Below are positions 2,879 to 27,697 of a DNA stretch of 57,582 bases, in pieces. The position numbers were made by a program, and so were the translations under genes. Origin of the DNA: an uncultured Spirochaetia bacterium (GTDB lineage Bacteria; Spirochaetota; Spirochaetia; Sphaerochaetales; Sphaerochaetaceae); NCBI GenBank assembly GCA_905236385.1, contig CAJOOY010000022.1, positions 1-57,582 on the forward strand, written 5' to 3'. Below the pieces are notes generated by a model, which saw only the letters and a list, made by a program, of their open reading frames with translations, was not told where the DNA came from and made no database searches. Numbering within the stretch: the first letter of the stretch is position 1; the number at the start of each line of letters is the position of its first letter.

Positions 2879-3850
2879 TCATTCTCCTTTGAATTTTGAC
2901 TTAAAATCTTTTGAAAAATTATTTTGAATCAGCTTTTCAACAGCTGATACAGCCCTTGTCTTTGCAGAGGTGTACGAAGTATGAGCCTCCCTTCCTGTTT
3001 TTGAGAATTCCAGAAGTTCTTTGTCCGTAACATCATCAGAAACACTGATATTGATTGTGTAGTACACAAACTTATAGGGACTGCCTTTGACTTCTGCGTT
3101 CTCAAAGCTTACTTCTGCCAAAATAGTATTACGTCCGTTTTTTCTGGAAACCTCATAGCCACAGTCAGTGAGAACTTTCTTGATAGCGGTTTCAAAACGC
3201 CCCGAGACATCGCCCTTCACCTCAACCACGACCGCAAGCCCGGAATTTGCCAAGGCTCTGAGCATGGTTGTGTCTACTTCCAGGTCGAACTCCAAAGGGG
3301 TTAATGAAAGAGCATTATACAGGAGAACGCATTTCAGATACTTTGAATAATCCTGTTCAATCTCATCCACAAGCCCCATACAGGAAAAGGTTCCTATGCT
3401 TTCAATTATCATTTCCTGAAGGTTCTCAACACGTGTTTTATACAGATTCGCTTGAGATCCGTAATAAAGCATGGAGCTTGCCTTTTTCAGGATGGCATGA
3501 GAGACATAAGAACCGTTACTCATTTCATATCGGACATCTATATCTATACCTACAATATCTTCAACATTGATGGCGGAAGCAGCACTTGAAGTGAAGACAT
3601 CATAGTTGTTTCCATTCCCTGCATCCATTGTAGATGTGCTGGTGGCAGCGACTATTGATGTCCCGAAAAACCCGGCAATGCCGGCCTTGGCATCAAGGTC
3701 GGCATCTTGAATGGTTTTTCCATATCCTGTTGCACAGATCAGCTTTGCAGAATCATATCCGGCATAGGGGTTGACCACCCATGCCGGAGTTGCTGCAAAA
3801 ACTGAAACTGTAACAATCAAGAAAACAAAAAATAAAATTATTTTGCGCAT
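2879..3850 (-). CDS. Exported LPP20-like protein
   Basis: A 323-residue protein with a type I signal peptide (cleavage expected after V-F-A, about residue 19) and no lipobox cysteine, so it is probably periplasmic or otherwise unlipidated. The mature N-terminus has the LPP20-like pattern PAWVVNPYAGY, then I-C-A-T-G-Y-G and an Ala/Asp-rich helix. The C-terminal half (residues ~190-320) is a separate alpha/beta region I do not recognise. Its start overlaps the preceding lipoprotein gene by 13 bp and its stop overlaps the next gene region, which points to one polycistronic mRNA. Function is unknown; pairing with a second LPP20 protein suggests they act together. Confidence 0.75.
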   Translation of the reverse strand: MRKIILFFVFLIVTVSVFAATPAWVVNPYAGYDSAKLICATGYGKTIQDADLDAKAGIAGFFGTSIVAATSTSTMDAGNGNNYDVFTSSAASAINVEDIVGIDIDVRYEMSNGSYVSHAILKKASSMLYYGSQANLYKTRVENLQEMIIESIGTFSCMGLVDEIEQDYSKYLKCVLLYNALSLTPLEFDLEVDTTMLRALANSGLAVVVEVKGDVSGRFETAIKKVLTDCGYEVSRKNGRNTILAEVSFENAEVKGSPYKFVYYTINISVSDDVTDKELLEFSKTGREAHTSYTSAKTRAVSAVEKLIQNNFSKDFKSKFKGE

Positions 3851-20381: not shown

Positions 20382-21860
20382 TTATTTTTCCTCCTGAAGA
20401 AGTTCGATTGCAGCAATCAGCTGGGAATCGAACCACGTGTCGCAGACAGGCTGCTCATCATATGTCATTCTACTATAATATTCGGTCTGAACAATAGCAT
20501 GAAGTATTTCTTCTGTCAGGCCACTATCTGCGTTTTCTTCGGCAAACAGTTTAACATTTGAAATAGTGTATTCTTCATGCTTATCAACAAAATCTTTGGC
20601 CGCAGAGCTCTTAATCATCTGAGTATAGGCCTGAGCCATATCTTCTGTAACGTAGAGAGACGGAACGTAGATATCCGGCTCAACTCCCACCTGGTGAATC
20701 TCGTTCCCCGAAGGCGGGATGAAGGAGGCAACCGTTATGGACATGTCGGCCTCCCCGTAAAGGCTTATGCTCTGCATAATTCCCTTTCCAAAAGATGTGG
20801 TCCCGACCAATGTCGCACGCCCGTTATCCTTCATGGTTGCTGCCAAGATTTCAGAAGAACTGGCACTATTTTCATTAATGATTATGACCACCTTCATGGA
20901 TGGGTCCACAAGAAGGTTTCTGCTTGCCCACATCTCATAGTCTTTGGAGCTATCTTTGTAGTGAACCGATAAAAGCTTGGAAGAAGCAATGAACATGTCT
21001 GCAATTGAGAGACTTGAGTCCACCATTCCACCCGGGCAGTCCCTGAGGTCTATAATCAGGCTCTTCATGCCCTCCTTTAGTAGCTCTTCTATGGCTTTCT
21101 TGGTGTCTTCTGCAGTGTTTTGGTAGAACTGCAAAAACCTTATGTAGCCAATCCCGGTGTCTTCAATCATGGTTGAGACAATGGCTGGAACGTTTACTTT
21201 AGCCCTTGTGAAGGTCTGATCAAAAGCAGCACCTCCTCTGAGGATGGTAAGAGTGACTGTAGTTCCAACCTCTCCCTTTATCAGAGATGAACACTCGGTT
21301 CCTTCCTTGTCTATTACGCTCTCCCCGTTTATGTGGGTAATCATGTCTCCGGCCTTAAGACCGCCGTAAGCAGCGGGAGAATTTGGGAAAACCTGGTTTA
21401 TGTTGCAGTAAAGGGTGGTTATGTCATCCGGGTCCTGATACTCAATATATGTCTTTGTATGATAGAAGCCCAGGCCTCCGTACTCACCAAGACTCTCTTC
21501 TTCGTAGTCTTCAGACTCTTCTGCCGTAACGTAGTAAGTGTATTTATCGCCCAAGGCGTCAAACATTGCTTTAGCCATGGCGTCATAGACTTTGTCGTAA
21601 TCAATATCCCACAGGTACTCATCATCCAGGTGCTTATAAAGCCGAGTGAGGGAGGTCATGTCCTTCTGGATGCGAGCAGCTCCGGACTCAGAGACTGAAA
21701 GATTAGTCGTTTCTGTTTCCGTTTCCTGCATAACAAGAGGAAGTTGACTTGGACTACTCTTCTCGTATATTCCCTCCCCAAAAACCATAGAGGTGGCAAT
21801 TAAAAGAAGAACCAAGATAACAAAAACTGCTTTTCTTTTTCTTCCATGTGCATGTGTCAT
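20382..21860 (-). CDS. S41 carboxyl-terminal processing protease
   Basis: About 492 residues; an envelope serine protease of the Ctp/Prc family. An N-terminal membrane/signal segment (AVFVILVLLLIATSMVFG) comes first, then a helical region, a PDZ domain (A-A-Y-G-G-L-K-A-G-D-M-I-T-H-I-N-G, about residue 190) and the S41 core. The catalytic Ser lies in N-E-N-S-A-S-S-S-E-I and the Lys in S-F-G-K-G. The ATG at 21860 is preferred over an in-frame GTG at 21875; neither has a clear ribosome site. It is first in a minus-strand unit with gpmI and the SmpA-like lipoprotein and is divergent from lgt. The substrate is unknown. Confidence 0.93.
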   Translation of the reverse strand: MTHAHGRKRKAVFVILVLLLIATSMVFGEGIYEKSSPSQLPLVMQETETETTNLSVSESGAARIQKDMTSLTRLYKHLDDEYLWDIDYDKVYDAMAKAMFDALGDKYTYYVTAEESEDYEEESLGEYGGLGFYHTKTYIEYQDPDDITTLYCNINQVFPNSPAAYGGLKAGDMITHINGESVIDKEGTECSSLIKGEVGTTVTLTILRGGAAFDQTFTRAKVNVPAIVSTMIEDTGIGYIRFLQFYQNTAEDTKKAIEELLKEGMKSLIIDLRDCPGGMVDSSLSIADMFIASSKLLSVHYKDSSKDYEMWASRNLLVDPSMKVVIIINENSASSSEILAATMKDNGRATLVGTTSFGKGIMQSISLYGEADMSITVASFIPPSGNEIHQVGVEPDIYVPSLYVTEDMAQAYTQMIKSSAAKDFVDKHEEYTISNVKLFAEENADSGLTEEILHAIVQTEYYSRMTYDEQPVCDTWFDSQLIAAIELLQEEK

Positions 21861-25734: not shown

Positions 25735-25889
25735 ATTTCTCATTATTTAGTTTTTTACTGTCAGAACATGAAAATACGTGATTTTTGCTTTTTTCAGAGA
25801 CAACACAATTACCTCTAATAAAAAGCGTGCAAGAAGAAACAGTATGGTTGAATCATAAGCAGATATCTGTGCTGTCAGATGTATATGTA

Positions 25890-26021
25890 TTACTGCGGAG
25901 CTTCTCTCAAGGATGCAGTCAGAAAGGCTTTTGCTTCTTCAAACGCACCGTGTCCCACGCATTCGTATACATTTCCAACTGTATGATCATCGTTACCTGC
26001 GATAATGAGTGTCGGGCAACT
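25890..26021 (-). pseudogene. C-terminal remnant of an alpha/beta-hydrolase-like gene
   Basis: On the minus strand a 43-codon open stretch ends in TAA at 25892-25890. It reads C-P-T-L-I-I-A-G-N-D-D-H-T-V-G, then G-H-G-A-F-E-E-A-K-A-F-L. This resembles the end of an alpha/beta hydrolase: the strand with the acid loop (A-G-N-D-D-H) and the region of the catalytic histidine (G-H-G). There is no start codon and a stop lies just upstream in frame, so it is a broken leftover. It begins about 5 bp after the stop of the AlbA_2 gene, as if that gene replaced the upstream part. Confidence 0.5.
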
Positions 26022-26025
26022 GATT

Positions 26026-27417
26026 TTACTCTTTCACTTTCCAATATCCCGTTTTATTAGATCCAATACGCTCAACAACATCTATTTTTTTAAGTTTTGC
26101 AAGATTGTAATCTATCGATGACTTTGCCATTCCTAATTTGTTCGCTATTTGTGGAATTGAGATATTTGGATTATTTTGCATTTCAGATAAAATTTTCACT
26201 TGTACTTCAGTTTTCTCTCCACTGGTTTTAGTGTCTGACTTATCTCCCGTTTTATCGCTCATAACATTAATCCAATTAAAGGGTATGGTTACGACAATTG
26301 TGTTTTCTCGGAATTCAAAAGCTTTTCTTCCATACTTCCTAATAATTGTGGGTACTCCGCGTCCGGTTTTTTCACTGATATGTAATTGCATAATAATTTC
26401 AGAAAGTTTGGGGTTCACAGGGACAGATTCCCCAGAAAAGAACCCTTCTATTGTCTGCCCCGCAGCAATTGTTCCTCTTGAAAGAATCTCAATGCGGTCA
26501 GAATAAACCGTAAACATCGGCTCGTTTCCTGAAACCCAAAGATTGTGAACAAAAGCATTGATAACAGCTTCACGAAAAGCATCGTTTTCAAAAAGCGGAA
26601 CCTCTTTTCTCTCAACAACCCGATCCCTTTCATCCGCCTGTATAATGTTCAAAACGTCTCCATATCGAAGTACATCATCCAAAGCATAGAGAATACATTG
26701 GTAACCAAATTCGCGAATAGAGTACATATTATCTGCCTTGGACGTCCCTGAAAAAATAGCGACACGAATCGGAAGATGACAATCATCGGACAATAGTTGC
26801 GCCAAGATATTATATTTTCCATCATCCGTAAGAAGTCCTAAATTCTTTTTGAACGTCTTTTCATTCAGCTTTATACCTTTTGCACCATAATATATCATAA
26901 GCTTTTCAAAAGTTAGGTTCTGATACTTTGACTCTGTACTTTCTATGGTTGGAATTCCATTACGGAGAACTGAAAAAAGATAAGCCTCACGCTCCGGGTA
27001 TTTTTCTATTTTTTCTTTGCTGGATACAATCCGTATGAAGCGTATCTTTTTATATGCAGTAGGAACTGTTTTTGCTGCAGGAATTGTCAGGAGGACCACT
27101 CTTTTATTATTAATTATTTCTTCGTCAAAATAAAAGTTGGTATCTGGAGTTAATTGTCTGGCAAGATAATGTTTAAGAGGCTCGTTATTAATTTCTTGGT
27201 CACTATCAAAATCTGTTCCAACAATTTCATGTGTTTCATTGTCAAGGCCCCAAACAAAATAGCCTTCTTTCTTTCCAAATATTGCGGCGCTATTGGATAT
27301 AGAAGATATATATTCTCCCAGTTCGTCTGGCTTGAACCAATTGTGCTTGAACTCAAACCATTCTTTTTCTGTAGGGTATTGTCTTAATTCATTAACTATT
27401 TGCTTTATACGCTCCAT
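26026..27417 (-). CDS. AlbA_2/HATPase_c_4 DNA-binding regulator (RecG-like COG2865)
   Basis: A 463-residue protein of the Schlafen-AlbA_2 type. Residues ~15-130 are the AlbA_2 domain (E-W-F-E-F-K-H-N at the start, G-Y-F-V-W-G-L-D-N). A middle HATPase_c_4-like domain has F-R-E-A-V-I-N-A-F-V-H-N, Y-S-D-R-I-E-I-L-S-R-G and K-T-G-R-G-V-P-T-I. The last ~70 residues are a winged helix-turn-helix (ISIPQIANKLGMAKSSIDYNLAKL). Such proteins are usually annotated as transcriptional regulators or putative ATP-dependent helicases; the mechanism is poorly known. AT-rich composition, solitary position and the hydrolase remnant suggest horizontal acquisition. Six operator-like copies upstream suggest autoregulation. 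Confidence 0.82.
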   Translation of the reverse strand: MERIKQIVNELRQYPTEKEWFEFKHNWFKPDELGEYISSISNSAAIFGKKEGYFVWGLDNETHEIVGTDFDSDQEINNEPLKHYLARQLTPDTNFYFDEEIINNKRVVLLTIPAAKTVPTAYKKIRFIRIVSSKEKIEKYPEREAYLFSVLRNGIPTIESTESKYQNLTFEKLMIYYGAKGIKLNEKTFKKNLGLLTDDGKYNILAQLLSDDCHLPIRVAIFSGTSKADNMYSIREFGYQCILYALDDVLRYGDVLNIIQADERDRVVERKEVPLFENDAFREAVINAFVHNLWVSGNEPMFTVYSDRIEILSRGTIAAGQTIEGFFSGESVPVNPKLSEIIMQLHISEKTGRGVPTIIRKYGRKAFEFRENTIVVTIPFNWINVMSDKTGDKSDTKTSGEKTEVQVKILSEMQNNPNISIPQIANKLGMAKSSIDYNLAKLKKIDVVERIGSNKTGYWKVKE

Positions 27418-27443
27418 TTTCGCCTCTTCTGTTGTGTTAAATC

Positions 27444-27491
27444 TTATCGCCTAATGTATTATATCACATTGGGCGATAAATTGGGCGATAA
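27444..27491 (-). promoter_or_regulatory. Operator cluster A: three GGGCGATAA-type sites over a -10 box
   Basis: One inverted copy TTATCGCCTAA (27444-27454), then two direct copies of TTGGGCGATAA (27469-27479 and 27481-27491) 12 bp apart. Read on the minus strand, TATAAT (27463-27458) lies in the 14-bp spacer between the inverted copies, so a bound protein would cover the promoter of the AlbA_2 gene, whose ATG is about 40 bp on. Confidence 0.72.
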
Positions 27492-27566
27492 TTCTGTTTT
27501 AGTAAAAAATTATTATTTACTGTCTTATATAAACTTATGTGATTATTGTGCAGCTTCAGAACAAAT

Positions 27567-27615
27567 TTATCGCCCAAAGTGTTTTTATCATATTGGGCGA
27601 TAAATTGGGCGATAA
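27567..27615 (-). promoter_or_regulatory. Operator cluster B: second set of three GGGCGATAA-type sites
   Basis: TTATCGCCCAA (27567-27577), then TTGGGCGATAA at 27593-27603 and 27605-27615, again 12 bp apart. The layout repeats cluster A almost exactly, with a 15-bp spacer holding TATGAT on the minus strand. Clusters A and B are 123-124 bp apart centre to centre. Cluster B may also affect the divergent pfkB gene. Confidence 0.72.
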
Positions 27616-27662
27616 ATTTTATTTTTTTCTGCCCCTCAGTGTGAAAAACTGGATTATAACAA

Positions 27663-27691
27663 TTACCCTAGCTGTAATTCTGTGTTAGAAT
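27663..27691 (+). promoter_or_regulatory. -10 box placed for a leaderless pfkB-kinase mRNA
   Basis: TAGAAT (27686-27691) ends 6 nt before the ATG at 27698. The hexamer 17 bp further up is TTACCC (27663-27668), a weak -35. No Shine-Dalgarno is seen. AATTAC/GTAATT (27661-27666, 27674-27679) form a small inverted repeat over the promoter. Confidence 0.45.
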
Positions 27692-27697
27692 GTTTCC

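Follow-up and report, generated by a model that had tools for sequence, protein, structure and literature searches.

Operator-like arrays upstream of an AlbA_2/HATPase/winged-helix gene in a Spirochaetia contig, and their recurrence as linker-coding DNA in homologous genes

The window analysed here is a contig of 57,582 nucleotides from an uncultured Spirochaetia bacterium of the family Sphaerochaetaceae, and the locus of interest comprises a gene for a 463-residue protein together with two clusters of short repeated sites upstream of it (Table 1). Pfam matches to PF04326 (E=2.6e-16), PF13749 (E=1.4e-11) and PF13412 (E=4.4e-8), all above the curated cut-offs, place SLFN_AlbA_2, HATPase_c_4 and winged-helix domains within this one protein, and no replication domain was found by Pfam. 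The structure model has a disordered linker at residues 382-400, followed by the winged helix from residue 404. The nearest solved structure, and the best fold match, is Corynebacterium diphtheriae DIP2311 (PDB 3LMM), a COG2865-type regulator with the same domain make-up; Schlafen N-terminal domains were also among the fold matches. Literature searches returned nothing on DNA targets of the AlbA_2/ATPase regulator class, and no described targets were found for COG2865-type regulators, whereas operators are proposed here, in relatives with copies inside the gene. A role in defence was considered for the gene and set aside, the PADLOC matches being weak. On the minus strand, positions 25850-26030 look by eye like the last part of a gene of the alpha/beta-hydrolase type, which may be a remnant.

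Table 1. Positions of the features at the AlbA_2 locus, numbered along the window
Feature	Position	Strand	Basis or remark
Gene for the 463-residue SLFN_AlbA_2/HATPase_c_4/winged-helix protein, proposed autoregulator	26026-27417	-	ORF, Pfam, structure model
Winged helix, residues 404-461; recognition helix 432-444	26035-26208	-	HTH_24 match; model secondary structure
Degenerate intragenic units in the linker: ATGAGCGATAAA at 26251-26262 (10/12) and ACGGGAGATAAG at 26239-26250 (8/12)	26239-26262	-	Codon read-out and scan
Putative operator cluster 1	27444-27491	-	Site search; layout conserved among homologues
Site with one mismatch, TTAGGCGATAA	27444-27454	-	Inverted copy, cluster 1
Extended -10 box, TGATATAAT	27458-27466	-	Sequence; same box in homologues; between inverted copy and direct pair
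Exact site, TTGGGCGATAA	27469-27479	+	Direct copy, cluster 1
Exact site, TTGGGCGATAA	27481-27491	+	Direct copy, cluster 1
Putative operator cluster 2	27567-27615	-	Site search; alignment of both clusters
Exact site, TTGGGCGATAA	27567-27577	-	Inverted copy, cluster 2
Exact site, TTGGGCGATAA	27593-27603	+	Direct copy, cluster 2
Exact site, TTGGGCGATAA	27605-27615	+	Direct copy, cluster 2

An earlier note on this DNA had described six copies of an 11-mer in two matching layouts, and both observations hold: the 172 bp at 27444-27615 contain TTGGGCGATAA five times exactly and once with a single mismatch. Read 5' to 3' along the coding strand of the gene, each cluster consists of a direct pair with copies 12 bp apart, a spacer of 14 bp (27455-27468, cluster 1) or 15 bp (27578-27592, cluster 2), and one inverted copy. 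The genome-wide search that the note had called for found the motif confined to the locus: of the exact matches in the 1,398,974-bp assembly, six in all, five lie within these 172 bp and one at 21544-21554, in an unrelated gene region, and a reversed-pattern control gave none. The note had also assigned a -10 box to each spacer. That of cluster 1 is good, and transcription of the AlbA_2 gene is predicted to start inside the inverted copy of this cluster; the assignment fails for cluster 2, where TATGAT (27587-27592) is not at the equivalent position. When the clusters are aligned, it is TAAAAA (27582-27587) that falls opposite the TATAAT of cluster 1, which suggests that cluster 2 arose as a duplicate of cluster 1 and has since diverged, its -10 box having decayed.

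Homologous loci were collected in a first scan, which gave 36 loci, and further searches added more. The same layout, in which a direct pair at 12-bp spacing is followed by a spacer containing the -10 box, then the inverted copy and the start codon, is found again before homologous genes of Firmicutes, of a Succinivibrio MAG and of a relative belonging to the window's own family; a -10 box like that of cluster 1 is likewise seen in homologues. A motif-free search recovered the direct-direct-inverted arrangement in front of 17 homologues as well as the window gene, with a spacing of 12-13 and a gap of 18-22. The operator letters, which were assigned by inspection, agree among the copies of one locus and differ between lineages (GGGTGATAA, GGGTAATAA, GAGCAATAA, GGGGGATAA, TTGGTAATAA and TTGGTAGATAA being spellings in the family); the inverted copy of L026 is the variant GTTGGTATAAA, though scored as GTTGGTAATAA, and that of L024 is GTTGGGTTTAAA. 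Over 17 genomes the pair pattern gave 35 matches, against one control match, nearly all at AlbA_2-type genes, and a search for a wider regulon by the same pattern yielded only scattered matches outside the gene family. The exact pair of the window was absent from the viral contigs searched, and plasmid and phage protein searches returned distant relatives only.

The array was present in 15/24 homologues with the same kind of winged helix, a group that takes in L020, which has a different helix, and L024, L025, L026, L100 and L119, whose spellings are missed by the simple pattern; L021, L045 and L047 have a similar winged helix and no recognisable array. No such array was found at L029, L030, L032, L034 or L190, whose cores are 62-67% identical to that of the window protein and which carry another helix domain. 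Grouping by script placed the array in 0/7 of the other-helix group (Fisher p=0.007), two of the seven being doubtful (L118, without its true promoter, and L045, with a similar ending); by our own arithmetic the five clean cases alone give p of about 0.017. All p-values given here overstate the evidence because the loci are related and not independent. Alignment columns that track operator spelling are enriched in the winged helix (8 of the top 20 lie in residues 404-444), and a partial Mantel test of helix-operator matching gave modest support (r=0.24, p=0.026). Among the homologues, the C-terminal module has been swapped on similar cores. As read from these sequences, the array tracks the winged helix rather than the AlbA_2/ATPase core. 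The comparison of upstream regions suggested in the earlier note thus turned out in its favour, since an equivalent array precedes the majority of the genes whose product has the same winged helix, and similar cores with another helix are without it. Together with the confinement of the motif to the locus, this supports autoregulation by the AlbA_2/winged-helix protein, which the note had pictured as cooperative repression.

In most homologues the promoter 12-mer also occurs within the gene, in frame, as tandem 12-bp units right before the winged helix, where it encodes a linker of four-residue repeats (VGNK, VGDK or VSNK; for example VGNKVGNKVGNK or VSNKTSNKVSNK). The linker DNA repeats the promoter operator of its own locus: GTGAGCAATAAA in L015, GTGGGGGATAAA in L028, L037 and L187, GTTGGTAATAAA in L026 and L031, GTTGGGAATAAA in L100, L186 and L188, and GGGGAATAAA in L117. 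Each promoter was compared with every segment of its gene and scored by the longest shared word, and the linker was the unique best segment in many loci, with 21 shared bases in L188, 19 in L008 and 18 in L028, L037 and L187. The mean number of bases that a linker shares is 13.5 for the promoter of its own locus and 8.5 for promoters of another class. Linker codons were identical to the operator in 196/224 cases, where the codon usage of the individual genes would predict 109.4 (p about 5e-6, the lowest value that the simulation could give); with one unit counted per locus, 57/65 were identical and 32.2 expected. For valine, the third bases of linker and operator agreed as G/G in 20/22 and T/T in 19/20; for glycine, as G/G in 22/25 and T/(T or C) in 28/28. 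On this codon evidence the match is at the DNA level, synonymous third bases following the operator of each locus. The 14-mer that L119 shares, AAGTGAGCAAGAAA, is translated in another frame (AGT GAG CAA GAA), an indication that what is conserved is the DNA and not the protein. A distant relative with 30% identity, L055, has a 15-mer common to its promoter and a VGLN linker. In genome G112 an AlbA_2 gene is apparently split by an insertion over two contigs, one (L174) with the promoter, five or six copies of GTGGGGGATAAA and the start of the gene, the other (L178) with the rest and six linker copies; the operator of L178 was taken from L174, which carries the start of apparently the same gene.

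Where distant members have repeat linkers of other kinds (TQVx, IPKT, NEGI, GTNQ etc.), linker and promoter mostly have no long word in common. In L027, L046 and L225 the word is present at the promoter, in at least six copies in L225, and absent from the linker. L124, with a shared 12-mer and no array, was judged too weak to count as a further case. Another distant homologue, L179 (554-2341), has an LGDKx4 linker of TTGGGTGATAAG units and lies directly downstream of a gene for a PIN-domain (VapC-like) protein. In the window itself the word is weak within the coding sequence, at 10/12 positions, and the longest word shared by linker and promoter was not significant, so the case for intragenic copies rests on the relatives. 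Homologues fetched after the idea had been formed were scored by the same longest-shared-word rule, and the linker was the unique best segment in 7/15 of them, L223, a second copy of L119, having been left out. Two of these, L218 (TTGGTAGATAAA, shared 33-mer) and L217, brought new spellings; L203, L206, L212, L213 and L215 had partial linker matches that did not rise above controls, and L214, L222 and L225 did not fit.

The strongest rival explanation, which we regard as a real if doubtful possibility, is that the promoter operators are functional and the linker copies are relics or recombination products, nothing binding the linker DNA today. An ancestral winged-helix gene would have joined the core by way of the operator upstream of that gene, with slippage or gene conversion keeping the arrays alike. 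Several observations suit such a history: in L027, L206 and L211 an operator stands in frame directly against the start codon, the number of units differs between the close relatives L015 and L016, the C-terminal module is exchanged on similar cores, and L175 has a stray fragment (2954-3190) that consists of repeat linker and winged helix alone and begins with the repeats, as though the module had broken off at that point. It fits less well with synonymous bases that follow each locus's own operator over many spellings, or with a word in another reading frame in L119.

Two congeners bear on the history of the locus, although their assemblies are each only about 80% complete. G002 has an empty site, with about 25820-27674 absent and the neighbouring pfkB kinase gene kept, and G003 lacks the AlbA_2 gene and keeps both operator clusters (236/238 bases identical), its pfkB and rsmE-like genes being 83.7% and 74.1% identical to those of the window. 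Aligned with the G003 locus L075, window positions 27458-27697 are 99.2% identical, with a sharp change at the pfkB start. Near-identical operators beside diverged genes suggest that the segment was recently transferred and the AlbA_2 gene later lost in G003. In L100 and L188 the gene lies among phage tail genes, and elsewhere it stands beside recombinases (as judged by eye), so it looks mobile; in the same two loci it directly precedes a tape-measure-like gene, as a cargo gene would. The clusters lie within an intergenic region shared with pfkB, and their survival in G003 could mean that they mainly serve the kinase gene, or both genes. We consider this very improbable, as the kinase gene of G002 is present without any of the sites, the arrays of homologues sit at the AlbA_2 gene with unrelated neighbours, and the kinase gene is provided with a separate TAGAAT-like box close to its start. 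Scarcely likely at all is autoregulation at the RNA level, in which the Schlafen-like AlbA_2 domain would recognise copies of the word in the mRNA that encodes it, at the ribosome-binding region and linker: the inverted copy and the linker units share one orientation in the transcript, and Schlafen domains figure among the fold matches, but a transcript begun from the -10 box does not contain the direct pair, which lies farther upstream, and the array follows the winged helix, not the AlbA_2 core.

The sites are probably operators of a self-regulating gene, with autoregulation exerted through the promoter. The C-terminal winged helix would bind an asymmetric word of about 12 bp, here TTGGGCGATAAA. 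As in an autoregulated repressor, the sites frame the -10 box of the gene's own promoter, in homologues as in the window. Around the box lie direct copies at a 12-bp interval, about one turn, and an inverted copy, so bound protein should exclude RNA polymerase and repress the gene. In the wider family the linker-coding word, about 1.15-1.2 kb downstream, would most likely act as an auxiliary intragenic operator, by a loop or a roadblock, and a working operator of this kind in that family is slightly favoured. The sequences themselves show the sites and their layout, the link to winged-helix type and the codon agreement at synonymous positions, whereas binding by the protein, its repressing effect and any role of the linker copies are inferred. 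More tentatively, the four-residue linkers may exist through selection on DNA, a codon-phased 12-bp site being kept so that linker and winged helix form a self-repressing module wherever it has landed, with promoter copies co-evolving.

In the lac (O2) and purR systems a promoter operator acts together with a second site in the transcribed region, through a loop or as a roadblock, and the present arrangement resembles them in that combination; here, by contrast, the intragenic sites are tandem, registered with the codons, and encode the linker beside the would-be reading domain. The lambda origin, with its O-binding iterons, maps within the O gene (PMC5043065), a likeness in that a protein's sites lie inside its own gene, but that is a replication origin, whereas here the word is found at the promoter too and nothing points to replication. 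Concrete DNA targets can now be proposed for AlbA_2/ATPase regulators, along with natural pairs of helix and operator spelling, and DNA words seem to serve as both operator and protein linker across distant bacteria.
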